A stretch of DNA of 34,909 nt, taken from NCBI GenBank assembly GCA_002238605.1, contig MPMR01000036.1, positions 1 to 34,909 on the forward strand, in the 5' to 3' direction. Of this stretch, positions 1 through 16,030 are shown one piece after another. Positions within the stretch are counted from its first letter, which is position 1, and each line of letters begins with the position of its first letter. The position numbers and the translations under genes are program-made. The notes beneath the pieces were generated by a model that saw nothing but the letters and a program-made list of their open reading frames with translations, did not search any database and was not told where the DNA came from. Source of the stretch: BD2-11 clade cluster bacterium bin43 (GTDB lineage Bacteria; Gemmatimonadota; Gemmatimonadetes; Longimicrobiales; Gaopeijiaceae).

Positions 1-1
1 C

Positions 2-238
2 CACTTCGTGCCCACCTCGTCCTCGTGGCTGAATCTCGTCGAGCGCTTCTTCTCCGAACTCACGCAGCGCCAGCTCAAACGCCTCGCCGTCCACAGCGTC
101 GGCCAGCTCGTCCACGCGATCACGTCCCACATCGACGACAGGAACCGCGCCCCGAAACCCTTCGTCTGGACCGCCACCGTCCGCGATATCCTGGCTAAGG
201 TCAACCGTGCCAACACCGCTTTAGCGGCACTACACTAG
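2..238 (+). CDS. IS630-family transposase, C-terminal part (runs off window start)
   Basis: The reading frame is open from the first bases and ends with TAG at 236-238. It reads HFVPTSSSWLNLVERFFSEL and continues with RNRAPKPFVWTAT. This is the C-terminal end of the DDE domain of IS630-family transposases, where the last catalytic acidic residue lies in the W-L-N-x-V-E-R-F-F motif. Only about 78 codons are inside the window, so integrity of the rest is unknown. Its stop overlaps the stop of the convergent toxin gene by two bases. It belongs to the accessory island and says nothing about the host's metabolism. Confidence 0.85.
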   Translation, partial: HFVPTSSSWLNLVERFFSELTQRQLKRLAVHSVGQLVHAITSHIDDRNRAPKPFVWTATVRDILAKVNRANTALAALH

Positions 239-666
239 CCTGGGCCGATCCTCGACCAAGGATCGATCACAATGAGTCCCGTACCCTCGAAATCTCGAAC
301 GTTGCGCGTGACCAGAGTGGCTCCGCGTGAGCGGGATATCGCGGCGATCTGGCAGTCGGCCTCGCCGATTGGCCGGCCCGCGTGTCGGCGCTCGGAAGCG
401 ATCTCCGCGTAGGCTCTGGCCGCGGCGCTGTCGAACGGCAGGATCCGTTCTCGAAAGCCGAGATCCAGCCAGCTTGTCATGGCAACCTCCAACGCGTTCC
501 GCCGCTTGCCGGTCGGCATTATCGCGACGCCGTAGAGGAGCTCGGCTTCGCTCACGGCCGTCAGGTACATGCCCTGCGCATCGCGCTCACCGATCCATGC
601 TGCTACTGCGGCCGTCGGTTCGGGGCGCATGAGTTCGGACGCGACATTCGTATCTATGACGAACAT
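235..666 (-). CDS. vapC: VapC/FitB-type PIN-domain ribonuclease toxin
   Basis: This 143-residue protein is a complete PIN domain, the ribonuclease toxin of type II toxin-antitoxin pairs. Visible family marks are MFVIDTNVASEL at the N-terminus (catalytic Asp5), the central AVSEAELLYGV, the GEADCQIAAI segment with its acidic pair, and LVTRNVRDFEG near the end. Length is typical of the FitB branch. By family knowledge it cleaves structured RNA, often tRNA, in a Mg-dependent way when free of its antitoxin. The start ATG at 664-666 lies 9 nt after the antitoxin stop with only a weak ribosome site, which suggests translational coupling. Both genes look intact, unlike most of their neighbours. The cellular RNA target cannot be read from sequence. 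Confidence 0.9.
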   Translation of the reverse strand: MFVIDTNVASELMRPEPTAAVAAWIGERDAQGMYLTAVSEAELLYGVAIMPTGKRRNALEVAMTSWLDLGFRERILPFDSAAARAYAEIASERRHAGRPIGEADCQIAAISRSRGATLVTRNVRDFEGTGLIVIDPWSRIGPG

Positions 667-675
667 GACAGCGGC

Positions 676-921
676 TCAGGAGAAATCCGGAGGCCCGCGC
701 ATCGGGCCGCGCGGGGGAAGTTCGAGTTCGACGCCGCCAAGTGACGCGAAGCACTGGCGGGTGAACGTCGCGAGATTCCGCGGACCGGCGCAACGGTCAG
801 TCACGGCTTCACGCAGGATGATTCGCGCTTCTTCCTCCATCGAACGGTGATGCTCGGCGGCGCGTACGCGAAGGCGCGTCTTAACGTCGTCGTCGAGATT
901 GCGGATCGTGATGCTCGCCAT
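676..921 (-). CDS. vapB: FitA/VapB-type ribbon-helix-helix antitoxin
   Basis: This 81-residue protein begins MASITIRNLDDDVKTRLRVR, the ribbon-helix-helix fold of FitA-like antitoxins. The short strand binds DNA and the EEEARIILREAV helix dimerises. The acidic/proline-rich tail should bind and inhibit the PIN toxin encoded next. The start at 921 is chosen over an upstream in-frame ATG because AGGAGG (cctcct on the plus strand, 930-935) sits 8 nt before it and the conserved MASITIRNLDD begins there. By family knowledge the antitoxin-toxin complex represses this operon. No clear palindromic operator was identified upstream. Confidence 0.88.
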   Translation of the reverse strand: MASITIRNLDDDVKTRLRVRAAEHHRSMEEEARIILREAVTDRCAGPRNLATFTRQCFASLGGVELELPPRGPMRGPPDFS

Positions 922-1068
922 TGGCCATGCCTCCTCGTGGTGCGGTACGTGCGGAGAAACTACCGCGTGATTGCAGTGCAACCAAGAGCATCAACCCCTC
1001 CCTGCTCGCTTCACAACCAGTGGGCGGAACTCGAAAGCCGTGCAAGCCAGTCCGATTGATGGGTCCAG

Positions 1069-1076
1069 TTGAGAAG
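1069..1076. repeat. Target-site duplication, left copy
   Basis: TTGAGAAG lies directly outside the left inverted repeat and is repeated without change at 4040-4047 outside the right one. Eight bases is the duplication length known for IS1595-family insertion. The perfect match argues for a single, fairly recent insertion with no rearrangement of the ends since. Confidence 0.93.
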
Positions 1077-1099
1077 GGGGATTATAAGGCTGACTTGAC
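1077..1099 (+). repeat. Left terminal inverted repeat of the IS1595 element
   Basis: The 23 bases are the exact reverse complement of 4017-4039. Their inner end TTGAC is followed by A, which makes a consensus-like -35 hexamer TTGACA (1095-1100) pointing inward to the transposase. A TAATAT at 1123-1128 could be a -10 hexamer, but the 22-bp spacing is too long for a strong promoter. Confidence 0.92.
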
Positions 1100-1116
1100 A
1101 GCCGCGCCAGATCATG

Positions 1117-1135
1117 TTACCGTAATATACGGTAA
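1117..1135. promoter_or_regulatory. Palindrome upstream of the transposase, possible operator
   Basis: TTACCGT, a 5-bp AT spacer and ACGGTAA form a perfect inverted repeat 26 bp before the transposase start codon and just inside the left end of the element. Its place between a TTGACA hexamer and the ribosome site (GGAGA at 1151-1155) would suit a transposase operator, or a structure limiting read-through from outside. Function is inferred only from position and symmetry. Confidence 0.45.
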
Positions 1136-1161
1136 GAGACGTTACAGCATGGAGATACGAC

Positions 1162-2078
1162 ATGGCGCACGGACCCGGAAAGAGCAACCGCAAGGGCATC
1201 AGCATGATGCAGCTCGCGGAGATGTTCGCGACCGAAGAGAAGGCGATTCGTTGGTTCGAGGACTGGACGTGGCCGACGGGCGAGATGGCCTGCATGCGCT
1301 GCGGTTCCGTGAACTGCTATCGGGTCAAGAGCGGGAAGCCGATGCCGTATCGGTGCCGGGACTGCCGGAAGTATTTCAGCCTGAAGACCGGGACGCTGAT
1401 GGAGGATTCCAAGCTCCCGTTGCGCGTCTGGGGCTGGGCGATCTACCGTGAGATGACGAGCCTCAAGGGTGTGTCGAGCATGAAGCTTCACCGGGACCTG
1501 GGCATCTCGCAGCCTGCCGCGTGGTTCCTGCTTCACCGTATCCGGGGTGCGTTCGCGGACATGCGGGCGACGTTCGCTGGCCCGGTGGAAGTGGACGAAG
1601 CGTATTTCGGCGGAAAGCGCAAGAACATGAGCAACGCGAAGCGCGCGGAACAGACGGGCCGGGGTCCGGTCGGCAAGCAGGCCGTGGTTGCCGCGAAGGA
1701 CAGGGAGACGAAACAGGTGGTCGCACGGGTGATCGACCGGACGGACGGCGAGACGCTGCGGGGTTTCGTGGACGCTCACGCGAGCGACGGCGCGAAGCTC
1801 TACACGGACGACGCCACGGCGTACCGGGGCACGAGCCGAGAGCACGAGACGGTGAAGCACTCGGCAGCCGAATACGTCCGGTACCTGGAAGGCGAGGGAC
1901 GGTCCACACCAACGGCGTGGAATCCTTCTGGAGCATGTTGAAGCGCGCTCACAAGGGCGTTTACCACAGGCTGTCGCCGAAGCACCTGCAAGCCTACGTG
2001 GACACGTTCGCGGGCCGTCAGAACGTGCGCGAGATGGACACGCTCGCGCAGCTTCAGCGCATGTCGTCGCCGGGATGA
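1162..2078 (+). pseudogene. IS1595-family (ISXO2-like) DDE transposase, frameshifted
   Basis: The first frame (1162 to about 1900) has a zinc ribbon (CMRCGS, then CRDCRKYFS), a helix-turn-helix region, and the first two catalytic segments of an ISXO2-like domain: EVDEAYFGGK and LYTDDATAYRG. After EYVRYLEGEG the homology moves to the -1 frame at about 1902, reading VHTNGVESFWSMLKR, which carries the catalytic Glu, and on to the stop at 2078. Together the two frames give about 305 residues, the normal family length. One missing base explains the change. No slippery heptamer of the A-AAA-AAG type is near, so a mutation is more likely than programmed frameshifting. The start ATG 1162 has GGAGA six bases upstream. 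As read, the protein lacks its catalytic Glu and should be inactive. Confidence 0.88.
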
Positions 2079-2170
2079 TCGGACGGCGGCTGACGTACCG
2101 GAATCTGGTAGCCGACAACGGGCGTTCCGCGATGGCTGGCCGATTCGGCTCTTGCGCGGCTTGTGCAGCC

Positions 2171-2201
2171 GTGTACACACTTGTGCAATAAGTGTGTACA
2201 C
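2171..2201. promoter_or_regulatory. 12-bp perfect inverted repeat before the cargo genes
   Basis: GTGTACACACTT and AAGTGTGTACAC are perfect 12-bp arms around a 7-base spacer. The inner GTGTACAC is itself a palindrome, and TTGTGCA occurs just before the left arm and again in the spacer region. The repeat lies between the transposase stop and the first cargo gene, 18 bp before its ATG, and has no T run after it. An operator for the cargo operon, or an RNA hairpin over its leader, fits better than an intrinsic terminator. Confidence 0.6.
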
Positions 2202-2219
2202 GGCAACGGGGGACAGACC

Positions 2220-2468
2220 ATGGCGAAGATGCCGGAATGGGTGAAGGTGTGGGCTCCGGTAGCGGTGATTCTCGGGGCGATGTGGACCATGAACACCCGG
2301 TCGGAAGATCGTCTGACGGCGCGACTGGACCGTCTGACCGAGCGCATTGAGCGGGTAGAAATGGCCTTGTCCGAGAACGGGAAGGCGATTGCCCGCCTGG
2401 AGGTCCGGGTCGGGCGGGTGGAGGACGACGTAACCTGGCTCCGCAACAACTACCGGGGCGACCGTTGA
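2220..2468 (+). CDS. Small membrane-anchored coiled-coil protein (transposon cargo)
   Basis: The ATG at 2220 follows GGGGGA at a normal distance and gives an 82-residue protein. Residues about 6-22 (VKVWAPVAVILGAMWTM) form one hydrophobic helix. Residues about 27-75 are rich in charged heptads (LTARLDRLTERIERVEMALS, then ARLEVRVGRVEDDV) and should form a parallel coiled coil. No enzyme motif is present and no named family was recognised, though similar short proteins occur next to phage and plasmid genes. It is the only cargo gene upstream of the methyltransferase, whose ATG starts one base after this stop, so the two are probably co-translated. It is intact while its neighbours are broken. 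Confidence 0.7.
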   Translation: MAKMPEWVKVWAPVAVILGAMWTMNTRSEDRLTARLDRLTERIERVEMALSENGKAIARLEVRVGRVEDDVTWLRNNYRGDR

Positions 2469-2469
2469 C

Positions 2470-3828
2470 ATGGCCAACAGCCTAGTACTTCGGGGATTGC
2501 CTCGACGTAATGCGAGAGGACATCCCCGTCGAGTCCGTTGACCTGATCTATCTGGACCCGCCGTTCAACTCAAAGCGGCTCTACAACGCCAGTATGGGCG
2601 GTGCCCAGTGGGTCGCGTTCAAGGATACCTGGCGGTGGTCGGAGGCGGTGGATGATTTCCACGACGTGGCGGGGGACAACCGGATGGCCGACACGATGGA
2701 GGGGCTCCGGCTGATCCTTGGCGAGGGGTCAAAGCTGGCCTACTTGTCGTACATGGCGAACCGGGTGCGGGAGTGCTGGCGCGTCCTGAAGCCCACGGGC
2801 TCGCTCTACCTGCACTGCGACCCGACCATGAACTATCTGCTCCGGGTGATCCTCGAAGCCGTTTCGGCAAATGTTCGGGGGGGTGGCGGAACGAAATCGT
2901 TTGGTGCTACACGGGCGCCAGCAATACTCCCCGGTGGTTCCCCCGGAAGCACGATACCATTCACTTCTACGCCCGCTCACCGTCCGCCACTTTCCGTCGT
3001 GACCCCGTCCGAATCCCATATCACCCCGAAACACTCGCGAGAAAAGGAAGGGCTGACGCAAGTTGATTTGCTCCCAACGCCAAGCGGAGCGCCGCCGAGG
3101 TTCGCGCCATGTTAGGTACTGGCAAGGTGCCGGAGGATTGGTGGTCCGGTATCCCAAAGCTGACGAATCAAAGGGAGCGGATCGGTTATCCGACACAGAA
3201 GCCGTTGGCACTCCTGCAACGGATCATTCAGGCGTCCAGTGAGCGTGGTGGTCTGGTACTCGATCCGTTCTGCGGGTGCGGCACCACGATTGAAGCTGCG
3301 CATGGATTGGAGCGCGAGTGGATCGGGATCGACATCTGCGTGAAAGCGTGCCAAGTGATCGAGGAACGGTTGCGCCGGAGCTTCGAGCTTGAATGGTCTG
3401 ATATCGAGTTCAAGGGAATGCTGAAGACGCGGGACCATGCCGCGAAGCTGGCCACCGTGGACCCGTTCCAGTTCGAGCGGTGGGCCGCGTCGCTGACGCC
3501 GTGGATGGAGTGGAACAAGCGTCCGGTGGCAGACAAGGGCATTGACGGCGAGGGACGTTTTCCTCTTCGCAAAGGCCGGTTCGCCAAGATAGTCGCTCAG
3601 GTGAAGGGCGGGCATACCCAGCCCCGCGACATTCAGGCGTTCAACGGAGCACGGCGTCAGGCGCGGGCCGACATGGGCGTCTTCACATGCTTCGAGGATC
3701 GGGTAACGCAGGGGATGAGGGACACGGCGGCGAGTACTGGCCGGTTCATGGGCGCGCCAGTGATCCACATATTCACCGTGGAGGACTACTTTGCAGGACG
3801 CCTCCCACAACTACCGAGGGCCGCATGA
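2470..3828 (+). pseudogene. Beta-class DNA methyltransferase fused to Mrr-like nuclease domain, disrupted
   Basis: Read through its breaks, this is a protein of about 450 residues. After MANSL the expected YFGDCLDVMREDIP continues one base out of frame (about 2484), then DLIYLDPPFNS gives the DPPF catalytic motif IV. Near 2862 the homology moves frame again (VILEAV to FGKCSGGWRNEIVW). An in-frame TGA stands at 3064-3066. The last part (3109 on) is open and has LVLDPFCGCGTT, the AdoMet-binding motif I. The order IV then I is that of beta-class amino-methyltransferases, and DPPF favours adenine N6. The C-terminal 120 residues hold DKGIDGEG and AQVKGGH, matching the G-x-D ... Q-x-K core of Mrr-type nucleases. 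It was therefore probably a one-chain methylase-nuclease. It overlaps the next gene by ATGA. Confidence 0.85.
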
Positions 3829-4034
3829 AGAGCAAGTCGCCGAAGCGGGCAGAGCCGCTTGACGTGGAGTCGGTGAACCCGCGTTACGAGGGACTGACGC
3901 TGGGCGGGATGGCCCGGTTGCTGACACGGCCCCGGAGTCCGGCCGCCCGGGCGGCTATCGACAGGCTTCAGGGCCGGTCTGTCACGCCGGAAAATCTGGC
4001 GAAGGAGCCGCCCGCCGTCAAGTCAGCCTTATAA
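3825..4034 (+). CDS. Small basic cargo protein ending inside the right terminal repeat
   Basis: The ATG at 3825 overlaps the methyltransferase stop (ATGA) and the frame gives 69 residues starting MKSKSPKRAEPLDVESVNPR, followed by YEGLTLGGMARLLTRP. The TAA stop at 4032-4034 lies inside the right inverted repeat, so the element's end supplies the final codons. No family was recognised. The basic N-terminus and short length would suit a nucleic-acid-binding or accessory protein of the methyltransferase-nuclease. The ATGA coupling shows it belongs to the same cargo operon. It may simply fill the space up to the transposon end, but it is open and in phase with the upstream cargo. Confidence 0.6.
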   Translation: MKSKSPKRAEPLDVESVNPRYEGLTLGGMARLLTRPRSPAARAAIDRLQGRSVTPENLAKEPPAVKSAL

Positions 4035-4039
4035 TCCCC
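4017..4039 (-). repeat. Right terminal inverted repeat of the IS1595 element
   Basis: This is the exact reverse complement of 1077-1099. It overlaps the last codons and stop of the 69-residue cargo gene. It is followed directly by the TTGAGAAG target duplication. Confidence 0.92.
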
Positions 4040-4047
4040 TTGAGAAG
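4040..4047. repeat. Target-site duplication, right copy
   Basis: This is the second copy of TTGAGAAG, immediately after the right inverted repeat, and identical to 1069-1076. Joining the sequence left of 1069 to the sequence right of 4039 restores the pre-insertion target. Confidence 0.93.
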
Positions 4048-4416
4048 ATTCGACAGAAGCTTCAGGAAGACATGCGTGGTTAGCTGCCTAAGCCGCGATG
4101 GGTGCTCAGTGGATCTGGCCGGAGTCCCCGAGCCGCGCTTGCTGATTGACTTGGACCTTCCGGGATGGTGGCGCCGGTAGAGTTCAAAGACGACATGGCG
4201 CAGGAAGGCCGTGAAGCAGCTTCAGGCCGGGGCGGACGAGTCGCACCACCGCGCCCCGGCGGCATCCGACACGACGTTCCGCCCTGTTGTTGCTCTCCAC
4301 CGCTTCGACCCGAAGATGGCCCGGCGAACCCTGCGTGCGAGGGTAGTCTTCAGGGATCGAGAAGAGCCAATCCGCGTCTTGATTTGTGGGCCGAGCTTCG
4401 GCAGGGTGTTGGAAAC
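4048..4416. other. Stretch with no convincing gene, upstream of the DUF1156 fragment
   Basis: About 370 bp follow the transposon. A plus-strand frame from GTG 4211 ends in TGA at 4418-4420, overlapping the ATG of the DUF1156 fragment as ATGA. This is the usual junction between co-translated genes, so the last residues may be the tail of a lost upstream gene of the same operon. The translated text was not recognised and is low in family-like features. No RNA gene, repeat or promoter was seen. Confidence 0.4.
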
Positions 4417-4503
4417 ATGAGCGCGACCCGAGAGAACTGCCGCCGGAAGCTCATCGAGGTTGCGCTGCCCCTCGACGCGATCAACGACGCTTCGAGGCGT
4501 GAG
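4417..4503 (+). pseudogene. 5' fragment of a DUF1156 (anti-phage-associated methylase) gene
   Basis: From ATG 4417 the frame reads MSATRENCRRKLIEVALPLD and then AINDASRRE. The segment KLIEVALPLDAIN is the hallmark N-terminus of DUF1156 proteins, large adenine-methylase-like proteins of defence loci that also carry DUF499 and helicase genes (family knowledge). The motif that should follow, with SIRHGHPSTLHLWWARRP, is absent. After about 4503 the sequence changes to the leader of an IS3-type orfA. Only about 29 of many hundred codons remain, so the gene is dead. It is evidence that a defence system once stood here and was cut by insertion or deletion. Confidence 0.7.
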
Positions 4504-4568
4504 GTGGTCCCGGTTTTTTTGGACAGGTCGTTAAGGTGGATTTCGGTAACGGAACGGGAGGCACCGAG

Positions 4569-4721
4569 ATGGCCGGGAAGAGACGGAGGTTCACACCGGA
4601 GCTCAAGGCGCGGTTAGCGCTGGAGGCGCTGCGGGAGCGCGACAGCGTGCGCGCGATCGCCAGGTGGCACGAGCTTCATCCGAACCAGGTGAGCACGTGG
4701 AAGCGGCAGTTGCTCGATGCC
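4569..4721 (+). pseudogene. IS3-family transposase OrfA, truncated
   Basis: ATG 4569 has GGGAGG at 4556-4561, seven bases upstream. The frame begins MAGKRRRFTPELKARLALEA and continues with HELHPNQVSTWKRQLLDA. This is the HTH domain of IS3-family OrfA. The similarity ends at about residue 50, where a complete OrfA would continue to a leucine-zipper region and OrfB. From about 4722 the frame runs into unrelated sequence and stops at 4826. OrfB and the right end of the IS are missing, so this is a remnant. The left junction with the DUF1156 fragment near 4504 may mark where the IS inserted. Confidence 0.78.
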
Positions 4722-4727
4722 GAATCA

Positions 4728-4865
4728 CCCTTCGTGGGGCTCACTGCCGACCACCTCGGCGTGTTCTCTCGCCCGCTGATCGAGTCGTGGGTCGTCGCCA
4801 CCTATCTCCTGCGGGAAGGAGACTAGGCCGTCGAGGACTTCCGGCAGGTGCTCGGACAAGCACAC
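4728..4865 (+). pseudogene. Fragment of an unidentified gene (possible DUF5677-like segment)
   Basis: After the OrfA homology stops, the same frame reads HLGVFSRPLIESWVVATYLL then REGD, a TAG stop, and AVEDFR. The pattern of aromatic residues around RPLIESWVVATYLL resembles the helical core of DUF5677-type proteins. A single change from GAG to TAG at 4824-4826 would explain the break in D-E-A-V-E-D-F. Nothing recognisable lies on either side. The assignment is weak and rests on a short motif-like stretch. Confidence 0.25.
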
Positions 4866-5008
4866 GCTGCGAATACTGCGGGAGGCTGAGAACGGGTCCG
4901 AGTTCTTTCGCACGCCCGCAGGTCAGATGAACCGTCAGGGCGTTCTGTCCGACCGAACTCGTGCCCAGATTACCCCTTGAGAAACGTGGACTAGCGACGC
5001 ACCTCACG

Positions 5009-5459
5009 CTAACGTTGGAGGATGCGTAGGCCACCAGCAAGATCGTTCCGGGTCAGGCTGAGGTCGAGGGTTAGTCCGAAGAGTCCCGCGCTCTTGATCC
5101 GGTTGCCCAGAAAGCTGGTCAACTGCTGGTGCCAAGGCTTGTCGATGCTCTCGTTCAGGAGGCGGTGAAAGGTCCGTCGCAGCATCTCGGGAACGTCATC
5201 GACCCCCCCAAGGTACACGTGACAGCCTACCCAGTTGGAATCGTGCTCGGCCCGGTGACGAACGAGAGCCGCCAGGGAGCTCTTGCCGATTCCCCTCTCC
5301 CCGGTGACGAAACCGACGCCGAGGGTGCCTTGGGCGCTCCGGCGGACGAGACCGTGAAGCCGCTCGGAACTGAACCGTCGTGTGCTGGAAGGCTGCGATC
5401 GTCGCCAACTCCCGGTTGGCGCTCCGGTACGCCGTCCATTTGCTGTCAAATTCCGGCAT
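5009..5459 (-). pseudogene. AAA-type ATPase, broken N-terminal remnant
   Basis: On the minus strand a frame of 146 codons contains GVGFVTGERGIGKSSLAALV, a clear Walker A (GxxGxGKS). It is followed by GCHVYLGGVDDVPEMLRRTF and later SAGLFGLTLDLSLTRNDL. This resembles ORC/AAA_16-type ATPases found in defence islands. The N-terminal part appears to switch frame near 5390 (MPEFDSKWTAYRSANRELAT in one frame, SSTRRFSSERLHGLVRRSAQ in the other). The frame stops at 5009 before any Walker B, sensor or effector domain. The gene is truncated and frame-disrupted. Its partner function cannot be told. Confidence 0.65.
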
Positions 5460-5569
5460 TTTCGGTCCGATGGATGGTGATGGCCTGCGAAGGCAAGAAG
5501 GAGGGATCGTGCGGTCCTAGTTGGACTTACGTGACTTCTTGCCGTGATTGCGAACTACTTCTTGGGGGT

Positions 5570-5611
5570 CTGATAAGCGTGAGGTCGGTAGTTCGAATCT
5601 ACCCAGGCCCA
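5570..5611 (+). tRNA. 3' fragment of tRNA-Ile(GAT), attachment-site scar
   Basis: The 42 bases start at the first base of an anticodon loop CTGATAA (anticodon GAT at 5572-5574) and then fit a tRNA base for base. They give the 3' anticodon stem GCGTG, variable loop AGGTC, T-stem GGTAG, T-loop TTCGAAT, T-stem CTACC, acceptor strand CAGGCCC and discriminator A. The bases before 5570 do not form the 5' anticodon stem, D-arm or acceptor strand, so no functional tRNA is made here. Tyrosine recombinases often cross over at the anticodon loop and carry the 3' half of the tRNA, leaving such a partial copy at the far border. Confidence 0.85.
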
Positions 5612-5660
5612 TTGAAGTTGCGGGATTGTCGGGAGCCCAGTTCGCCAATCATGGGGAGTT

Positions 5661-5679
5661 GAGAATGAGTCTCATTTCA
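5661..5679. promoter_or_regulatory. Fur-box-like operator
   Basis: The core AATGAG-T-CTCATT (5664-5676) is a perfect 13-bp palindrome. The 19-base window GAGAATGAGTCTCATTTCA matches the classical Fur box at 12 of 19 positions by hand count. It lies 72 bp before the start of the HhH lipoprotein gene, which is followed by a PepSY protein, a family often tied to iron uptake. Iron-dependent repression of that pair is a reasonable inference. No -10/-35 was assigned. Confidence 0.6.
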
Positions 5680-5751
5680 TGCAGATTGTTGCTCCGTGCC
5701 TGCGCGTGGACGCCATACGCAACCAGGCTCACCTCATGAAACGGAGGCAGC

Positions 5752-6447
5752 ATGTCCCGCCACAGCGTAACGCTCGCCCTTGTCATGATTCCGGTGCTAT
5801 CGGCCGGCTGTGGGGGTGGCGACGCGCCAGAACCTGAACCCGCCGCCAGGGAGTCCATCGAGGCCATGGGCGATATGGGTGCCGCAGGTGCAATGGCCGC
5901 CCTCTCCAACCCCAACCTCGCCACTGAAGACGAGCTGACCACGGTACCGGGGGTCACGGCCGAGGTTGCCGCGGCGGTTGTCGGCGGACGGCCCTACCTG
6001 CGCGCGGCGGATCTGCACGCCGTGCTGGCCGGGACGATCGGAGAAGAGGCGGCACTGGCGGCTTACGGTGCACTCTGGCTGCCGATCAACCTCAACGACG
6101 TGACGAACGACGAAATCCTCCTGATTCCGGGTGTGGGGGATCGGATGGCCCACGAGTTCGAAGAGTACCGTCCATACGTGGACATGGGCGAGTTCCGCAT
6201 GGAGATCGGCAAGTACGTGGACGAGGACGAGGTGGAGCGGCTCGCGCGCTACGTGTACGTCCCGATCGACCTGAACAGCGCCACCCGCGAAGAGATCATG
6301 GCGGTTCCGGGGATGAGCGAACGCATGGCTCACGAGTTCGAGGAGTACCGCCCGTACACCGACCTGGACCAGTTCCGGCGCGAGATCGGGAAGTATGTGG
6401 ACGAGAACGAGGTCGCGCGTTTCGAGCGCTACGTGACGTTGAACTAG
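5752..6447 (+). CDS. Helix-hairpin-helix repeat lipoprotein
   Basis: This 231-residue protein starts with a lipoprotein signal (hydrophobic ALVMIPV, then L-S-A-G-Cys20), so it should be anchored in a membrane facing the periplasm. The mature part has about three ComEA-like helix-hairpin-helix units, each with a P-G-V/M turn: TTVPGVTAEVA, LLIPGVGDRMA and MAVPGMSERMA. The last two form a near-identical tandem duplication of 60 residues (HEFEEYRPY and IGKYVDE recur). HhH units usually bind DNA backbone, but in exported proteins the role is unclear. GGAGG at 5743-5747 supports the start. A Fur-box-like site upstream and the PepSY gene 55 bp downstream suggest iron-related control. Confidence 0.8.
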   Translation: MSRHSVTLALVMIPVLSAGCGGGDAPEPEPAARESIEAMGDMGAAGAMAALSNPNLATEDELTTVPGVTAEVAAAVVGGRPYLRAADLHAVLAGTIGEEAALAAYGALWLPINLNDVTNDEILLIPGVGDRMAHEFEEYRPYVDMGEFRMEIGKYVDEDEVERLARYVYVPIDLNSATREEIMAVPGMSERMAHEFEEYRPYTDLDQFRREIGKYVDENEVARFERYVTLN

Positions 6448-6502
6448 GCGGACAGGGCCGCGCGCGGGCGCGGGCTTCGTCGGCCCCGGCGGTGTCAAGG
6501 CG

Positions 6503-7651
6503 ATGATCCGGGCAACCATCTTCTGGCTGCACCTCACCGTGGCCGCGGCCGCCGGGCTGGTCATCCTGATGTTGGCGGTGACGGGCGTAGTCCTGTCGCT
6601 GGAAGAGACGGTGGCCGGGCTTGCGGAGCGACGGTACTTCGTGGCCGCGCCGGAAGGTGCGGAACGGCTGCCACCGGAGGAGATCGCGGGGGCGGCGGGG
6701 TTCACGGCGACTTCGATGAGCTACCGGTCGGATCCGCGCGCGCCCGTGCGCGTCCATGAGGGACAGGACCGGTACGCCCGCGTCAATCCGTACACCGGGC
6801 AGGTGCTGACAACGGGACCGGGCGGACTCGAGCGGTTCTTCGAAGGCGTTCACAACTGGCACCGCTGGTTCAACGTCTCGCGAGGCTCGGTCCGGCGTGC
6901 CCGGGCGGTGACGGGGGCGGTCAACGTGGCCTTCCTCTTTCTGCTGCTTACCGGACCGATCCTGTGGCTTCCGCGGCCCGTCACCCGGCGGTCGCTCGCC
7001 AACGTGATCCTTTTCCGTCCCAGGGCGGCGGGCGCCTCGCGCGACCTCAATTGGCACCAGGTGGTGGGGATCTGGTCGGTCCTGCCCCTGGCCGTGATCG
7101 CGGCAACGGGGGTCGCCACGTCGTATCCGGCCGTGGGCGATCGCGTTTATCCGATGGTGGGGAACGCAGTGTCCACCGGTGCATGGGCGGTTGGGCCGGC
7201 GTCCGAAGAGGTGGGACCTGGGGGAGCGTTGATTTCGGAGGACTCCGCTCGTGGGCCGGACGCGGACCTGAGGGCCGTGCTCGCAACCGCCGAGGCATGG
7301 GCGCCGGGGTGGCGGACCTTGATCCTGAACGTGCCGCGCCCCGAGGACAGTGAGGTCCGCGTCGAGCTGCAGGAGGGCCGAGCAGGCCAGCCCCACAGGA
7401 CCGGCTTTCTCACCCTGGACGCCGCCTCCGGAGCCGCGCGCGCATGGGAGTCCTTCGCCGACCACACGCCCGCACGGCGCGCACAACAGTTCCTGCGGTA
7501 CGCGCACACGGGAGAGTACTGGGGGCTCGGGGGCCAGCTGTTGGCCGGACTCTTCTCGTTGGCGGCCGCCCTGATGGTGTGGACCGGCCTTTCCCTGGCG
7601 GTGCGCCGGCTGAGACGCTTCGTCAGGTTCCGGCGGGCAGCGCGGGGATAG
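6503..7651 (+). CDS. PepSY-associated transmembrane protein (probable ferric reductase type)
   Basis: The 382-residue protein has the layout of the PepSY-TM family. TM1 is at residues 5-32, followed by a large periplasmic PepSY-like region. TM2 is at about 138-157, TM3 at about 183-207, a second periplasmic region follows, and TM4 is at about 346-367, before a basic cytoplasmic tail. Histidines typical of haem ligation stand in or beside helices: H10, the HNWHRW motif near 117, NWHQ before TM3 and YAHTGEYWG before TM4. Family members are placed with TonB-dependent siderophore receptors and are thought to reduce or release iron. It shares direction with the upstream HhH lipoprotein and probably its Fur-type control. 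Its 3' end overlaps the convergent neighbour by 29 bp. Confidence 0.82.
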   Translation: MIRATIFWLHLTVAAAAGLVILMLAVTGVVLSLEETVAGLAERRYFVAAPEGAERLPPEEIAGAAGFTATSMSYRSDPRAPVRVHEGQDRYARVNPYTGQVLTTGPGGLERFFEGVHNWHRWFNVSRGSVRRARAVTGAVNVAFLFLLLTGPILWLPRPVTRRSLANVILFRPRAAGASRDLNWHQVVGIWSVLPLAVIAATGVATSYPAVGDRVYPMVGNAVSTGAWAVGPASEEVGPGGALISEDSARGPDADLRAVLATAEAWAPGWRTLILNVPRPEDSEVRVELQEGRAGQPHRTGFLTLDAASGAARAWESFADHTPARRAQQFLRYAHTGEYWGLGGQLLAGLFSLAAALMVWTGLSLAVRRLRRFVRFRRAARG

Positions 7652-8573
7652 GAGATGGGACCCCGCGCGAGAAACCTCCACCGGTCTCGATGTCGACGGC
7701 TATCGATCCGATCAGGTTCCCGATCGCCTTCTCCCCGCGGCGCAACGCGTATCGATACAACCCGCGCCAGCCCAGCGCGGTCAGCCAGCCGACCGCTGCT
7801 CCGCTAGCAAGGAAGCCCAATACCGCCGCACCCGCTGCGATACCCCCGATCCCGAGGGCGGCGGCCGCGCCCGCTCCCGCAAAGGCGCCACCGACGCCGC
7901 TCAACGACCCGGCCAACCCCGAGAAGCTGCCCCCGACCCACATATTGAGCTTGTGGCTGTGGATCAGGCTCCCGCGCACGGTCAACTCGGTCGCAGGCGG
8001 ATCGGTGTCCAGGCGCCGGAGGCTGAAGAGCAGCTGCTTGAGGTCGATCCAGGCCATCTCGTACGCGAACGACTGATCTCCCAGGGTTGACAGGTATGCA
8101 GGCACCTTGAAGACCAGCACGCCCCCGTCGAGGGGATCGGCTCCGTGCTGATCGATAATGCTCAGGCGAAACGGGTTCTCCGGAAGGATCCTTTGCATGG
8201 CGCCGTAGACCTCCTCCGCCGGTGCATGGATCACCCGGGAGACCTCCAGCGCGAGCGGCGGTTGGCCCAGGAAACGGGCTGCCATCGCCGACGGCCGGGC
8301 CTCGGCTCCCTCAACAAGGGCCCGACTGCGAGCCTCCGCGACCGCACCATCAACGAACTCCGGCGAGATTCCGGCTTCTTCGGCAGCAGCCCGGACATCC
8401 GCCAGGCGGTACCCTTCGACCTCCGCCGTGTCGGAGTCTGAGGGATGCCCCCTCGGAGCCAGCTGCCGCGAACGCTCCTCGAGGCGACGAGCGGCCTCGG
8501 CCTGCAACTCGGCCGCACGGTGCCAGAGTGCGCGTGCCTCCTCTTCGGAGATGCGGGTTTCGTCCCGGCTCAT
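7623..8573 (-). CDS. Membrane protein of unknown function with N-terminal helical domain
   Basis: The 316-residue protein has three visible parts. The N-terminus (ISEEEARALWHRAAELQAEA then GYRLADVRAAAEEAGISPEF) is a helical domain with two short acidic/amphipathic motifs. The middle (about 95-205) is a soluble alpha/beta-like region that could be START/SRPBCC-type. Then come two Gly/Ala-rich membrane segments (SGVGGAFAGAGAAAALGIGG and AAGAAVLGFLASGAAVGWL) and a short basic tail. No catalytic motif was seen. The start at 8573 (MSRDETR) avoids overlap. An alternative ATG at 8609 would overlap the upstream Fe-S gene by 11 bp and has GGTGG directly before it. It is last in the minus-strand operon with the Fe-S and flavin proteins. 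Confidence 0.65.
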   Translation of the reverse strand: MSRDETRISEEEARALWHRAAELQAEAARRLEERSRQLAPRGHPSDSDTAEVEGYRLADVRAAAEEAGISPEFVDGAVAEARSRALVEGAEARPSAMAARFLGQPPLALEVSRVIHAPAEEVYGAMQRILPENPFRLSIIDQHGADPLDGGVLVFKVPAYLSTLGDQSFAYEMAWIDLKQLLFSLRRLDTDPPATELTVRGSLIHSHKLNMWVGGSFSGLAGSLSGVGGAFAGAGAAAALGIGGIAAGAAVLGFLASGAAVGWLTALGWRGLYRYALRRGEKAIGNLIGSIAVDIETGGGFSRGVPSPIPALPAGT

Positions 8574-8598
8574 GGAGCGGCCGCGCCGGGTCGTGCCA

Positions 8599-9795
8599 TC
8601 ACGCGGCATTCCACCAGCGGGACGGTCTCAGTCGCTCGCCGCGTCCACTGACGCGGTCGAGCCAGAGCGCGAGTCGCCTGAGCCGCGTGCCTGCCAGCCA
8701 TCGCCACACTCGACTCCAGGGGTGGCGATAGTCGCGGTTGTATGGGCAGACGCGCACGCAGATCGAGCAGTCGGTGTTCTGGTTGGCCCAGAAGCGGAAG
8801 CACTTCTCGGCATCCGTGGTCCATTTGCGGATGCCCTGGATGTTCGACCGATTGTGGACCACGGTGGAAGGTTCGCCGTCGTCGATGGCCTTGGCGGGGC
8901 AGCCGTTCGTGCATGCGCGGCAGATGTCGCACGTCTCCTGCACGCCGAATCGGACCGGCCGGTCGTGGGCGAGCGGCATGTCGGTGAAGACCTTGCCGAG
9001 CCGGACCCGGGGACCGTACTCGCGGGTGATGAGGAGCCCGTGGCGTCCGTACTCGCCCAGCCCGGCCTTGATGGCGAGCGGGATGGCCAGTGCCGAGTCG
9101 TTCATGCTGGCCACGGCCTGGTAGCCGAGATTGGTGATGTACTGCGCGATCGCCAGCAGCACGATGGTATCCCGGGAGTAGGTGGCTCCCGTCGCGGCGC
9201 CGCTCAGCGCGGAGGGCGCCGTGCGCAGAAGTTCCCGGTCCATGGATTGCGCGATGACGATCACGTTTCCGAGATCGGTGGAGATCTCCTGCGGCTTCTC
9301 GTGCTCGTTCTCGCGGCTGTAGGCATGCGTGTAGAGCCACCGCTCGTCGTTGCCGGTGATCCCCACCAGGTCGGCGCCCAGGGTCTTCGCGGCGTGCTTG
9401 ATCTCGCGCGCCGCCTCCTCGGGAGAGGCGACCGGCAGCGCGCTGCCCGGGCCGTCCCGAACGACGGTGTACGGATCCAGGAAGCCCTCGCGGCGGTCGT
9501 CGCCGTCACGCAGCTCGGCGAAGATGTCCGTGACATGCCAGGACGCGTTGCGCAACGCGTAGTCACGCTGGGTGAAGCCGTCGACGGAGCGCCAGGTCAG
9601 CTTCGGCGTGCGATACGTCTCGTAGAACATGTCCGAGCGGTCCGTCCGCACCTCCGCATCCCAGAACGAGCGGCAGAAGATGTCGTCCCTCTGCGAGAAG
9701 CGCCGAAAATCCTCTCCGATGTCGAAGTCGGCTTCTTCGTCCGTGACGCCGGATCCGCCGTCTTCCGCGCAACCCGGGTCGGTTGAGTCGTCCAT
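8599..9795 (-). CDS. Reductive-dehalogenase-like Fe-S protein
   Basis: This 398-residue protein is similar to the reductive dehalogenase/epoxyqueuosine reductase superfamily. The region AIKAGLGEYGRHGLLITREY then GPRVRLGKVFTDMPL is the conserved corrinoid-side segment of RdhA-like proteins. Two 4Fe-4S sites follow: CDICRACTNGCP near residues 287-298, and a second set with CSICVRVCP near 343-351 plus an upstream Cys (EKCFRFW). Unlike respiratory RdhA it has no Tat signal, so it probably works in the cytoplasm. Family members use cobalamin and electrons from Fe-S clusters to remove halide or reduce epoxide-like substrates. The substrate here is unknown. The start at 9795 lies 4 bp after the stop of the flavoprotein gene, so co-translation is likely. 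Confidence 0.8.
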   Translation of the reverse strand: MDDSTDPGCAEDGGSGVTDEEADFDIGEDFRRFSQRDDIFCRSFWDAEVRTDRSDMFYETYRTPKLTWRSVDGFTQRDYALRNASWHVTDIFAELRDGDDRREGFLDPYTVVRDGPGSALPVASPEEAAREIKHAAKTLGADLVGITGNDERWLYTHAYSRENEHEKPQEISTDLGNVIVIAQSMDRELLRTAPSALSGAATGATYSRDTIVLLAIAQYITNLGYQAVASMNDSALAIPLAIKAGLGEYGRHGLLITREYGPRVRLGKVFTDMPLAHDRPVRFGVQETCDICRACTNGCPAKAIDDGEPSTVVHNRSNIQGIRKWTTDAEKCFRFWANQNTDCSICVRVCPYNRDYRHPWSRVWRWLAGTRLRRLALWLDRVSGRGERLRPSRWWNAA

Positions 9796-9799
9796 CCGG

Positions 9800-11800
9800 T
9801 CAGCTCATCCCGTCGGCGCCGGTGGTCCGGGTCCGGGCGCGGCTTCGAACGACCAGCTGCTCGCGGGCCGCTCGATGCGCCTCGTCGATGGCCGCGTCCG
9901 TGTGCGGGGTGGCGGCGGCATCGGAGTTCGCGATCGAGATCCGTCCGAATCGACGCCTGCCGATCACGCACGGCCGATCGTCGGGGGCGAAGAGCGCCCA
10001 TTCGATGGGATCGTTCAGGGTGTCGTAGCTGTAGGCGTAGCCGTGCGGCCAGCGATTCACGGTGATCGCCTCGATGTCGCGCGCCGGGTCGAAGCCCCCG
10101 TCCGCGAGCATGCGGCCGAGCTGATCCCTGATCTTGCGCTCGAAGGTCTCGAAGGTCGTCTCCAGGAGATCCGCCCTTCCGATGCGGTGCTGCTCCTTCT
10201 TCGGCAGACCGGGAGCGCAGGGGGTCCGCGTCATGTGCAGGACCATCGGCCCGTCGGGCGATCGGGAGGGGCGGTAGTCGCCCAGCGGCACCGACCGGCC
10301 CAGGTTGACGCCGGTGTGGTACATCCCCGGAGAACTCGCCCTTGAGATGCCCAGGTTCGTGAAGGCGGTCCACCGGCGGACGAGCACGCTCGTGTAGACA
10401 AGCGGCATCTTGACGCCGTACATGAGCGCCGCCCGCTGCGCTTCGGGCATCTCCGGCACGAGGTGCGGGATGACCCGGTTGTAGCACGCCATCACGCAGT
10501 GATCCGCCCGGACCTTCTCGGCCCTGTCCCCCCGCACGTAGGTGACCTCGACCTGGCGGGCCGCGTCGGGATCGCCCAGGTGGCGGGCGGATACGACCGT
10601 GCTGTTGAGTCGGATGCGGGCGTCGGAGCCCTCCCGGTCGAGCCGCTCGTACGCGAGCCGTGACGTGATCGAGTCCTCGAGCGTGGACCCCGGAAGCGCG
10701 TCGGGGATCATGGCCCGGACCAGCAGCCGGGCCAGCGTCGCGTTCCCGTCCGGAAGATCGATGGTGGGTCCTCCTCCCCATTCGCGCTCGCGGCCGTGTT
10801 GTCCTCCCCCGATATGCGTGAGGGGCCCCACCGGCGAGAACGGCTCGAGATTCATCCCCTGGAATCCGGGATAGCCCTCGGCCCATGCGTAAAGAGCGGG
10901 ATAGGCGTCGATGCCCACGCAGAAGAGCCCCTTGGGGCCGTCGTCGTAGAAGGGGATGACGTCGGGGTGCACCTTTGCGAGGTCGAGGAGGAAATCGCGG
11001 TAGCTCATCCTGGCCAGCCGCTCCTTCTTCTCCCAGTCCGGGAGTCCCGGCATGTGGTCGGGATTCGCGCTCTCGTCGTTGAGCCTCGCGATATCCCTGC
11101 GGGCGTCCGCGGAGAGCGGGGTCCGGGCGAGCCAGTCGGCCCAGTCGATGTCCGCGTTGCGTCCGGGCCGCCCCTGCACCAGCCGATCCTCGCCGAACAC
11201 CTCCCTCGCGAAGAAGGTGGCGCTGCCGAGCCCCAGCGAACGGTAGAACTCCCGGCTTCCCGCGCCTGCCGCCTGCGCCCTGTCCAGGTCCAGGCCAACC
11301 GCGGCGAGCAGCGTCCGCGAGACCGTGCTGTAGTGGTTCACGGACTCCAGGTTCGACGTCCCGCCGTTCAGGAGGAGCGTGCGGCCCCCGTAGCTGAACT
11401 CGTTCCGCTTGGCGTGACCCCCGAAGTCGTCGTGGTTGTCGAGAACCAGCACGCGCGCGCCCGGCCCCGCCGACGTCAGGAAGAAGTACGCCGCCGAGAG
11501 TCCGCTCAGCCCCGCGCCGACCACCACGAGGTCGTAGCTCTCGCGCGTGTCGGCGGCGGTCCAGGTGATCCCGTCCCGTAGCTGGTGGGCCACCTCGAAA
11601 GAGCCCGGATGGCTCCCGCGCATCCCCGTCAGAGCAGGCGGATAGTATTCCTGTGGGCCGCGGAACGGCCGGCCATCAAGGGCCGACAGCCATCCCGGCG
11701 CAAGGAGGGAGCCCGTCACGGCAACCCCCACGCCGTTGATGAAGTCGCGTCGGGCGATGTCCCGGTGCATGCCGAGATCGCGATCCTCACTGGTGGACAT
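9800..11800 (-). CDS. Tat-exported FAD-dependent amine-oxidase-like protein (spermidine dehydrogenase type)
   Basis: The chosen start at 11800 has GGAGAGG three bases upstream and gives 666 residues. The N-terminus has a twin-arginine signal (RRDFINGV then GVAVTGSLL), so the folded, FAD-loaded enzyme should be exported. The dinucleotide-binding motif VVVGAGLSGLSAAYFF follows at about residue 83. LDNHDDFGGHAKRNEF is the typical second FAD contact of this group. The C-terminus WPHGYAYSYDTLND and later FGRISIANSDAAAT closes the FAD site. Layout and length resemble periplasmic spermidine dehydrogenase-like proteins, but substrate is not provable from sequence. It leads the minus-strand operon and is divergent from a PQQ dehydrogenase, which suggests an exported oxidation module. 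Confidence 0.78.
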   Translation of the reverse strand: MSTSEDRDLGMHRDIARRDFINGVGVAVTGSLLAPGWLSALDGRPFRGPQEYYPPALTGMRGSHPGSFEVAHQLRDGITWTAADTRESYDLVVVGAGLSGLSAAYFFLTSAGPGARVLVLDNHDDFGGHAKRNEFSYGGRTLLLNGGTSNLESVNHYSTVSRTLLAAVGLDLDRAQAAGAGSREFYRSLGLGSATFFAREVFGEDRLVQGRPGRNADIDWADWLARTPLSADARRDIARLNDESANPDHMPGLPDWEKKERLARMSYRDFLLDLAKVHPDVIPFYDDGPKGLFCVGIDAYPALYAWAEGYPGFQGMNLEPFSPVGPLTHIGGGQHGREREWGGGPTIDLPDGNATLARLLVRAMIPDALPGSTLEDSITSRLAYERLDREGSDARIRLNSTVVSARHLGDPDAARQVEVTYVRGDRAEKVRADHCVMACYNRVIPHLVPEMPEAQRAALMYGVKMPLVYTSVLVRRWTAFTNLGISRASSPGMYHTGVNLGRSVPLGDYRPSRSPDGPMVLHMTRTPCAPGLPKKEQHRIGRADLLETTFETFERKIRDQLGRMLADGGFDPARDIEAITVNRWPHGYAYSYDTLNDPIEWALFAPDDRPCVIGRRRFGRISIANSDAAATPHTDAAIDEAHRAAREQLVVRSRARTRTTGADGMS

Positions 11801-11839
11801 GGCCTCTCCGATTCCTCGAGTCGCGCGGCATGGCGTGGA

Positions 11840-11872
11840 TCGCGAACGCTCCGTACTCCGTCCGGTTCGCGA
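11840..11872. promoter_or_regulatory. Inverted repeat between divergent dehydrogenase genes
   Basis: TCGCGAAC and GTTCGCGA form perfect 8-bp arms with a 17-bp spacer. They are centred in the 175-bp gap between the start of the flavoprotein gene (11800, minus) and the PQQ dehydrogenase gene (11976, plus). Position and symmetry fit a shared operator, but in such GC-rich DNA an 8-bp repeat can arise by chance. Confidence 0.35.
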
Positions 11873-11975
11873 GATGGCGGGCCTCACATGTAGGTTTCCT
11901 GCAAACTCCCCCGGCCCAATACCGGTGTCAAGCAAGCGATGGGCTGGTGGAAAACCGGAACCCGGGAGAGCGCTC

Positions 11976-13964: not shown

Positions 13965-13965
13965 G

Positions 13966-14049
13966 TTCGGTTTCCCGCCAGGAGAGCGTGTCGCCCGCAT
14001 CCACGACCCCGAAGGCAACCCGATCGAGCTTTGGGAACCCGCGTCGTGA
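13966..14049 (+). pseudogene. C-terminal remnant of a VOC (glyoxalase/bleomycin-resistance) protein
   Basis: Directly after the PQQ gene stop, a frame offset from it reads GFPPGERVARIHDPEGNPIE then LWEPAS and a TGA stop at 14047-14049. The phrase I-H-D-P-E-G-N-P-I-E-L-W-E-P is the standard C-terminal strand of vicinal-oxygen-chelate proteins, where the Glu is a metal ligand. No start codon or upstream VOC domain exists, because the sequence before it codes for the end of the PQQ enzyme. It is a left-over tail of about 28 codons, so a gene was replaced or deleted at this junction. Confidence 0.7.
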
Positions 14050-14080
14050 GATTCGAGCGAGTTCCGGGGCTTCTCTTCCC

Positions 14081-15619
14081 CTACCAGAACACCACGTAAA
14101 GCCCCACGGTCAGGATCACCACGACCGCGCCCGCCCACCTTGCCGACGGTGCCGGCTCGAGGTCGACGGCATCGGACTTAGGCAGGGGCCGGGCCGCTTC
14201 CAGCGGCCGGACGCGCGACCCGACGACCATCGCCAGGCTCGAGAGGACGAACGCTCCCGCCGCGGCATTCAGGTACGCCTGCGAGTCGAAGAACACATCG
14301 AGCGCGAGCGTCAGCAGCCCGTACGCCACCGGGCCGATCAGGAGCGCCACGGTCGCCGCCCGCGGCGGGGCCTTGGGCAGGACCATCCCCATGAGGAAGA
14401 CGGCGAGGATGCCCGGCCAGATGAAGTTCCAGACGCGCTGCATGTACTCGTAGATCCCACCGACCGAAGCGAGCTGCGGGGCCAGCAGGCAGCCGATCAC
14501 GACGAAGACGCCGGTCGCGATCCTGCCGATGCGCACCGCCCTGCGCGGCTCGAGCTCCTTCTTCACGACGTGGCGCGAGTAGATGTCCAGCGTGAAGATC
14601 GTGGACGCCGAGTTCAGCATGGAGTCGAGCGAGCTCATCACCGCCCCGAAGAGTGCCGCGAACATGACGCCGCGAAGCCCCGTGGGCAGCAGGTCGGCCA
14701 TGAGCGTCGGATACGCCTGATCTCCGATGGCGATGTCGCCCGCGTAGCGTTGATACGCCGCGATCCCCGGCATCACGATCAGGAACGGGATCAGCAGCTT
14801 GAGGAACGCCGCGAAGATCACGCCCTTCTGGCCCTCGGCCAGGCTCCTCGCGGCCAGCGCCCGCTGGGAGATGAACTGGTTCAGCCCCCAGTACGCGATA
14901 TTGGGGACCCAGATGCCCATGATGTAGATCGTCCACGGCAGCGTCGGATGATCGGCCGGCAGCATCAGGTGGAGCCTGTCCTCGTTCGCGGAGAGGAACG
15001 CGCCGAATCCGCCCACGGCCTCCATGGCCAGGAAGAACAGCACCGCACCGCCCGCGAGCAGCGCGACGCCCTGCAGCATGTCGGACCAGACGACCGCCTT
15101 CAGCCCGCCGTAGATCGTGTAGCCGCCCGCGAGCAGGCCGATAGCCCAGACGCCGGCCGCCAGGTCGAGCCCGAAGATGCTCGTCAGGGCCAGGCTTCCC
15201 GCATAGAGGATTCCGGCCAGCCCCACGACGACGTAGACGATCATCAGGTACGCGGCCATGATGACGCGCGGCGTCGGCCCGAATCGGAACTCGAGGTATT
15301 CGGGCAGCGTGTAGATGCCCGCCTGGAGAAACCTGGGCAGGAGCACGAGGGCGACGAAGACGAGCGCGATGGCCGCAATCCACTCGAAGGCGGCGATGGC
15401 CAGCCCGGTCTGAAACCCCTCGCCGGACATGCCGATGAAGTGCTCGGACGAGATGTTGGAGGCGATCAGCGAGATGCCGATGAGCCACCAGGGCAGGTTG
15501 CGGCCGGCCAGGAAGTAGTCGGCGGTCGTGTCCTCCCTGCGGCCCGCGTAGAGCGACACGCCCACCACGATGCCGAGGAAGACGAGGAACGCGACGAGAT
15601 CGATCCGGTCCAGCGCCAT
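14081..15619 (-). CDS. Sodium:solute symporter (SSS/SGLT family)
   Basis: The 512-residue membrane protein has about 13-14 hydrophobic helices. It shows SSS signatures: RREDTTADYFLAGRNLPWWL after the first helix, SNISSEHFIGMSG in the unwound helix region, GGLKAVVWSDMLQG, and the Na-site segment MSSLDSMLNSASTIFTLDIY. Such proteins import sugars, carboxylates or amino-acid-like solutes with sodium, and the SGLT-like pattern favours sugars or inositol. The exact solute is unknown. The ATG at 15619 lies 3 bp after the stop of the DUF983 gene, so it is the last gene of an operon with SDR and DUF983. Confidence 0.88.
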   Translation of the reverse strand: MALDRIDLVAFLVFLGIVVGVSLYAGRREDTTADYFLAGRNLPWWLIGISLIASNISSEHFIGMSGEGFQTGLAIAAFEWIAAIALVFVALVLLPRFLQAGIYTLPEYLEFRFGPTPRVIMAAYLMIVYVVVGLAGILYAGSLALTSIFGLDLAAGVWAIGLLAGGYTIYGGLKAVVWSDMLQGVALLAGGAVLFFLAMEAVGGFGAFLSANEDRLHLMLPADHPTLPWTIYIMGIWVPNIAYWGLNQFISQRALAARSLAEGQKGVIFAAFLKLLIPFLIVMPGIAAYQRYAGDIAIGDQAYPTLMADLLPTGLRGVMFAALFGAVMSSLDSMLNSASTIFTLDIYSRHVVKKELEPRRAVRIGRIATGVFVVIGCLLAPQLASVGGIYEYMQRVWNFIWPGILAVFLMGMVLPKAPPRAATVALLIGPVAYGLLTLALDVFFDSQAYLNAAAGAFVLSSLAMVVGSRVRPLEAARPLPKSDAVDLEPAPSARWAGAVVVILTVGLYVVFW

Positions 15620-15622
15620 CTT

Positions 15623-15973: not shown

Positions 15974-16030
15974 GGACGGGGGACGGGGCGGCACGCGATC
16001 GTGCGGGACCTGGAGCAGGGCCAACGAGCC

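Follow-up and report, generated by a model that had tools for sequence, protein, structure and literature searches.

When an element integrates into a tRNA gene, the textbook outcome is that the host retains the 5' half of the gene along with its promoter. Among the 3919 islands in Islander, 3760 have displaced 3' fragments and 159 have 5' fragments (PMC4383910). In the islands with 3' fragments, a tyrosine recombinase crosses over in the anticodon loop, the restored tRNA gene lies at the integrase side, and the displaced 3' half lies at the far side (PMC4383910). (The scheme of overlap and core sites used by tyrosine recombinases is reviewed in PMC8371274.) Integration on the 5' side is described as seldom seen in bacteria (PMC8371274). 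For an archaeal pTN3-like case, the promoter for the restored tRNA is described as supplied by the element (PMC8371274, PMC5495485). Each mode is thus known singly. Our literature search, which covered mostly papers outside subscription journals, turned up no description of a single tRNA gene occupied on both sides.

We analyzed a stretch of 34,909 nucleotides (the window), which is the whole of contig C16 in a 65-contig assembly (genome G000). A sequence-only reading had taken positions 5570-5611 for the 3' half of a tRNA-Ile(GAT) gene that lacks its 5' half, displaced to the end of an island by crossover at the anticodon loop. Both claims hold. The fragment (CTGATAAGCG...CAGGCCCA) is identical at 42 of 42 positions to positions 33-74 of the tRNA-Ile(GAT) gene on contig C36 of the same 4.47-Mb genome (E = 2.2e-15), and it begins with the first base of the anticodon loop and ends with the discriminator base. 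ARAGORN did not call any tRNA in the window, and the 5' half of the tRNA is also absent there. Across the genomes, displaced 5' halves stop at tRNA position 39-40 and displaced 3' halves begin at position 33. In the fragment we see attR, the 3' half displaced by a tyrosine-recombinase island whose crossover lies in the anticodon loop, CTGATAA. The features of the window are listed in Table 1.

Table 1. Features around the tRNA fragment (positions in the window)
Feature	Position	Strand	Basis
Distal part of an integrated element (left end beyond contig)	1-5430		ORFs, Pfam, PADLOC
PIN toxin	235-666	-	ORF, Pfam
FitA-like antitoxin	676-981	-	ORF, Pfam
IS1595 transposase	1162-1941	+	ORF, Pfam
DNA methyltransferase/Mrr-like gene, two ORFs	2510-3115 and 3109-3828	+	ORF, Pfam, PADLOC methyltransferase match
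IS HTH fragment	4536-4826	+	ORF, Pfam
AAA_16 ATPase fragment	5009-5449	-	ORF, Pfam
Conserved distal end of element family (stops ~19 bp before core)	5431-5569	+	C36 identity, family matches, 34-end alignment
Distal-end inverted repeat, GGCAAGAAG (5492-5500) and CTTCTTGCC (5535-5543)	5492-5543		Sequence, alignment
Displaced 3' half of native tRNA-Ile(GAT), positions 33-74 (attR)	5570-5611	+	C36 identity, no tRNA call in window
CTGATAA anticodon loop, putative 7-bp crossover overlap	5570-5576	+	Ends 5' halves, starts 3' halves
Degenerate integrase-proximal (P') arm of second A-type element, integrase lost	5612-5655	+	Arm alignment vs shuffles
HHH-protein and PepSY-TM gene pair with promoter region, relocated	5657-7651	+	84-88% identity in nine congeners, different locus
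Unknown-family gene (on other contigs in relatives)	7669-8576	-	Synteny; Pfam: no match
Start of native tRNA-Ile downstream neighbourhood	8578-20000		G002:C7 synteny; 20000 = extent of G002 compared

We then looked for the rest of the gene. The anticodon arm has three copies in the genome, as found by a pattern search: the window's, an intact one on C36, and a degenerate one on C19. Pattern searches of the 65-contig assembly found no intact GAT gene besides the one on C36. The three complete genomes from the family (G014, G031, and G034) have one full-length, closely similar copy of tRNA-Ile each, so tRNA-Ile(GAT) appears to be normally single. (The C19 copy, G000:C19:1015-1049 or L007, is a further tRNA-Ile 3' half, degenerate, that follows a distal end.)

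Just left of the fragment is a sequence of about 110-140 bp that has at least 39 matches in the genome and 10-38 matches in each of the eight congeners we searched. Window positions 5431-5574 are 94% identical to C36:28475-28619. In an alignment of 34 of these ends, the layout is constant: the inverted repeat, then about 15-20 bp, and then a core site. The core site can be the tRNA-Ile anticodon arm, the tRNA-Val anticodon arm (on contig C32), or a palindrome such as CTGCCAAAATGGCAG or TGCCAGCCCGGCA. The complete genome G034 has three single elements in which this end marks one side; a tyrosine recombinase lies 5-8 kb from it, with its 3' end pointing to the opposite side. From this layout, we take the conserved end to be the distal end of an integrase element. 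At L134 1063-1265 and again at L135 5812-6022, a gap of about 75-90 bp separates a facing pair of distal ends and contains CTGCCAAAATGGCAG twice; there, CTGCCAAAATGGCAG is a non-tRNA core site of the same family of elements.

The only intact tRNA-Ile(GAT) gene that we found is at G000:C36:71783-71856 on the minus strand (ARAGORN), and it lies between two convergent integrases. IntA (393 amino acids) ends about 40 bp from the 3' end of the tRNA, and IntB (390 amino acids) ends about 50 bp from its 5' end. Both belong to PF00589. The best integrase matches are from sponge-type Gemmatimonadota MAGs, including one named Candidatus Palauibacter denitrificans, and by these matches the genome appears to be that of a sponge-associated, Palauibacter-type member of the Gemmatimonadota. 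Beyond the integrases are ICE-like genes, namely a coupling protein and ArdC (from Pfam) and a VirB11-like ATPase (by eye). The integrase of the element that ends in the window is absent from contig C16. The sequence-only reading had placed an intact tRNA-Ile gene and an integrase beyond the left end of the window. The identical 42 bp do lie beside a tyrosine recombinase, but because the window is the entire contig, with nothing further to its left, the search for them moved to other contigs. (On contig C42 of the same genome, a convergent pair of integrases separated by about 80 bp has no tRNA in the gap; L140 13419-15777.)

Convergent integrases surround the intact tRNA-Ile gene in G000, G001, and G003. 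In G010, IntB is present and the contig stops at the tRNA. G008 has IntA, and its IntB is interrupted by the end of another element. (The intact gene is not in the G007 assembly.)

What did the site look like before integration? In the congener G002, the intact tRNA-Ile gene (C7:9652-9725) lies between PhzF and homologues of window positions 9818 onward. The order there is tRNA-Ile, 12 bp, the homologue of 9818-13982, then 8578-9800, and then 14065 onward. The sequence-only reading had expected window DNA from 5612 onward to follow an intact tRNA-Ile gene in relatives without the island. Window-type chromosomal DNA does follow the gene in G002, but the junction is with 9818 and not with 5612. 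That reading also depended on the genome having a matching tRNA-Ile gene, which is the C36 copy, and on relatives without the island not carrying an isolated fragment. At this locus, G002 is intact, and the 3'-half fragments of G003 and G004 adjoin an element end. In G003, the 3' half is joined to the native downstream sequence that is shared with G002; in G004, it is followed by HHH-PepSY remnants and then by the native downstream sequence. Of the features that Islander looks for, tRNA-Ile has a matching displaced end fragment, PF00589 integrases (IntA and IntB) beside the C36 gene, and an empty site (G002:C7).

The native upstream sequence of tRNA-Ile (PQQ dehydrogenase and PhzF) is on another contig of G000, C8, where it matches G002 at 89% until tRNA position 39 and then stops. 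This native 5' half (C8:7897-7935) is joined to an inverted distal end. Since the native upstream sequence ends at a bare 5' half, the native gene lost its 3' half at that place. In five congeners, the native gene is likewise cut at 39-40 with its native upstream sequence retained, so that a displaced 5' half with native upstream sequence lies at the far end of an element in C8 and in all five. The inverted distal end follows the 5' half in C8 and in four of the five congeners; in G008 it is degenerate. The cargo beyond the C8 junction includes JAB, E1/ThiF, and metallo-beta-lactamase-like genes. Beyond the junction in other genomes are a type III restriction-modification set (G007) or an MmeI-type IIG enzyme (G003).

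The sequences next to the intact gene vary accordingly among the seven scorable genomes of the genus. An integrase arm (the B arm) flanks the intact gene on its 5' side, with the native 5' half displaced, in five of five cases; in the two genomes without a B arm (G002 and G004), the native 5' half is not displaced. The D-loop also differs. Displaced or native 5' halves have GTTGG in G000, G001, G002, G003, G007, G008, and G010. Genes beside a B arm have GGTGG (or GTCGG in G001), which differs from the displaced native half in five of five genomes, although the native gene of G004 also has GTCGG, so the D-loop base does not mark origin strictly. The D-loop base supports a foreign 5' half in the gene beside the B arm. 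Gene conversion could also explain the difference.

We propose that the tRNA-Ile(GAT) gene is occupied from both sides, by elements that restore its 3' half (A elements) and by elements that restore its 5' half (B elements), with the same crossover. We consider this quite likely. It draws on what can be seen directly, namely the sequences, breakpoints, synteny, families of arms and ends, and integrase clades. The integrases would form one clade of tyrosine recombinases (about 390 amino acids, PF00589). Recombination would be conservative, with the 7-bp anticodon loop as the overlap and the arms of the stem as core sites, so that the core would be the near-palindromic anticodon arm. An A element would carry a tRNA 3' half beside its integrase-proximal arm; its integration would restore the gene while moving the native 3' half, the fragment in the window, to its far end. 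A B element would be the mirror image. Its attP would hold a tRNA 5' half, ending GCACGCCTGATAA; its integrase would read into the tRNA; and C8:7897-7935, at its far end, would be the displaced native 5' half. An integrase that lies upstream and reads into the restored tRNA is what we see at C36. With both elements in place, the array would be: [native upstream - 5' half] - B ... intB - [B 5' half + A 3' half] - intA ... A - [3' half - native downstream]. If A and B elements used the same crossover, then the working gene would be built from element-borne halves. Because IntB is upstream in the same direction and the native upstream sequence is lost, the tRNA would probably be transcribed from B.

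We infer that C8, C36, and C16 form one array, and likewise the order of events and the source of the 3' half of the working gene. Counting against the proposal, no single contig covers the 5' half, the intact gene, and the 3' half. Also, the distal end on C36 (at 28.5 kb) lacks a 3' half. Together with the arm remnant and the moved genes in the window, this indicates later rearrangement of the locus. The 3' halves do not differ in sequence, which makes their sources indistinguishable.

A broader claim is more tentative: in most of the genus, the single tRNA-Ile(GAT) gene may have been taken over from both sides, so that its native promoter is lost, it is transcribed from the upstream integrase unit, and a mobile element is needed to read isoleucine codons. 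In any case, the only intact copy that we found of a presumably essential tRNA sits between the integrases of two mobile elements. The gene would be partly or wholly element-borne, on islands whose cargo includes restriction-modification and E1/JAB-type genes.

We considered several other explanations for these junctions. First, there might be a single canonical island, with the native tRNA-Ile gene restored in place and just the 3' half displaced. This was the picture in the sequence-only reading. This arrangement does exist: G004 has canonical occupation by an A element alone, with the native upstream sequence kept at the intact gene. Likewise, tRNA-Val(TAC) has a complete canonical A-type island, about 42.5 kb long, on a single contig of genome G000 (G000:C32:25107-67692; L298 and L299), which comprises the intact tRNA-Val gene, a 3'-side integrase (25231-26400), and a distal end with a 3' half in the same orientation (67521-67692). 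But in G000, the native upstream sequence of tRNA-Ile leads into a bare 5' half that stops at position 39, where an element end takes over, and the intact gene is flanked by an integrase arm instead of by the native upstream sequence. The native gene was not restored in place; its 5' half is on C8, joined to the end of a second element. A single island is therefore unlikely. (For tRNA-Val on C32, the gene and the fragment are on one replicon; the tRNA-Ile gene and fragment are on different contigs. The 5' flank of the C32 tRNA-Val gene also resembles an integrase arm. In G008, a tRNA-Val 3' half with a distal end, at C80:117410-117451, is in the opposite orientation to the intact gene at 124458-124532 (L303), and that gene has integrase-arm-like sequence at both flanks.)

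Second, an ordinary element with a 3' half might have inserted in the inverted orientation, with the gene being repaired later from another copy. In its favour, the anticodon arm is a near-perfect inverted repeat, and the distal ends at the split halves are mutually inverted. However, inverted insertion predicts an inverted 3' half beside the integrase, and all of the 5'-side integrases that we observed abut the complete 5' end of a tRNA. This includes integrases without a partner element and those at tRNA-Arg and tRNA-Val. For instance, L158 has IntB and tRNA-Ile with no adjoining A element, and L164 has a 5'-side integrase at tRNA-Val. At tRNA-Arg(CCT), the integrase reads into the 5' end in L226, L231, and L236, and there are convergent integrases in L215. 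Integrases also lie at the 5' end of tRNA-Leu (L224 and L178). In G005, a 39-bp displaced 5' half of tRNA-Arg has native-looking upstream sequence and lies 18 bp from an inverted distal end, which is the far-end arrangement seen for tRNA-Ile on C8. The tRNA-Arg cases, L158, and the tRNA-Val island on C32 also give the proposal of A and B elements independent support. (For the tRNA-Val 5' halves in G004, G005, and G034, the next sequence is not a distal end, and we left them out of the support.)

The integrase tree also argues against inverted insertion. It has 99 rows, and all nine of the 5'-side rows for tRNA-Ile form one clade (97/85). Four 5'-side rows for tRNA-Arg form another clade (100/99), which is sister to the main 3'-side clade for tRNA-Ile (100/96 jointly). 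One 3'-side row for tRNA-Ile lies beside the 5'-side clade for tRNA-Ile (86/92). From this topology, the side of the integrase seems to have changed more than once. Given that the 5'-side integrases form clades with a fixed type of junction and also occur alone, we set inverted insertion aside as improbable. If one clade of integrases uses the same 7-bp loop from both sides, as we propose, then it becomes testable what sets the orientation of an integrase on a symmetrical site.

Third, a transposon with terminal inverted repeats might have landed in the anticodon loop and duplicated 7 bp of its target. This was our first reading of the inverted ends, which occur at both halves; the two tRNA halves have 7 bp in common. 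But the single elements of G034 have this end on one side and a tyrosine recombinase on the other, and we saw no transposase beside the ends that split tRNAs. We rejected the transposon on the layout in G034 and think it very unlikely. Finally, an artefact of assembly or binning at repeats is also hard to credit: the genomes from this genus are all fragmented and many contigs end at these repeats, but the 39-40 breakpoint recurs in six genomes with different cargo, and the tRNA-Val island is contiguous in one contig.

How does two-sided occupancy compare to the known systems? The window fragment and the tRNA-Val island on C32 both fit the Islander type with 3' fragments; the difference is that at tRNA-Ile, the native 5' half is also displaced, by a second element. 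The B elements resemble islands with 5' fragments (PMC4383910) and pTN3-like integrases (PMC8371274, PMC5495485) in that attB is in the 5' half, the native promoter is severed, and the element lies upstream. Unlike pTN3, whose integration disrupts its integrase gene, the integrases here are whole. Another difference from both is that here 5'-side and 3'-side integrases are found in one clade and can share one gene. In the tRNA-dependent lysogeny of actinophages, integration also costs the host its own tRNA gene at that site, and a tRNA of the mobile element serves the cell instead (PMC10865867). But in those phages, attP and attB share just about 10 bp and a complete phage tRNA complements the loss, whereas here the halves rejoin at the junction. 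Such lysogeny combines a short core, a tRNA that is not rebuilt at the junction, and a separate complete tRNA on the element; here, a complete tRNA is at the junction of the integrase arms, as on C36. Tycheposons are similar in layout, with a bordering tRNA, a tyrosine recombinase, and islands rich in cargo, but a two-sided arrangement is not part of the description of them that we consulted (PMC10872708).

The conserved distal end and the arms could also serve as markers for mapping islands in fragmented genomes from metagenomes, where many contigs break at these sequences.

We then compared the two sides of the fragment. The left side had been described as accessory DNA in decay, which fits the two-ORF methyltransferase and the fragments of an AAA ATPase and an IS, but the toxin-antitoxin pair looks intact. 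The right side had been described as intact chromosome, which is true from 8578 on. Before that, 5612-5655 is an arm remnant, and the genes at 5657-8576 are elsewhere in relatives. When we aligned 5612-5655 to nine 3'-side integrase arms, none of 300 shuffles scored as high for eight of the arms, and 4 of 300 did for the ninth. Native downstream sequences did not give a comparable alignment to 5612-5655.

In nine congeners, the HHH-PepSY pair has a small TonB-plug-like gene upstream and no tRNA. The corresponding locus in G000 (C7:115364-115719) does not have the pair. Judging from these loci, the pair has moved, and our genome's own C7 locus now lacks it. We had considered whether the congeners' locus, with no tRNA upstream, refuted the sequence-only reading, but we dropped this idea, because the native DNA begins at 8578 and the pair is relocated. 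In G004, the pair is likewise beside the tRNA 3' half, but it is decaying. The native block in the window is also out of order: 8578-9800 comes first, then 9818-13982, and then 14065 onward. The gene at 8578-9800 has reductive-dehalogenase and 4Fe-4S domains; it precedes 9818-13982 here and follows it in G002, G003, and G004.

Farther to the right, large genes with FN3, LRR, and Ig-like domains (21771-34909) also occur on C36 (32.5-45.3 kb), in the same order and with about 80-82% identity. The C36 copy of this block sits between a distal end and IntA.

Genome G016 has about 10 tRNA-Ile 3' halves on contigs C57, C68, C87, and C26 (L096-L099). Several of these are in tandem, 1.6-9.2 kb apart, and some are preceded by another inverted repeat, ACCGGAAAG...CTTTTCCGGT. 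This series looks like an accretion array of another family of elements.
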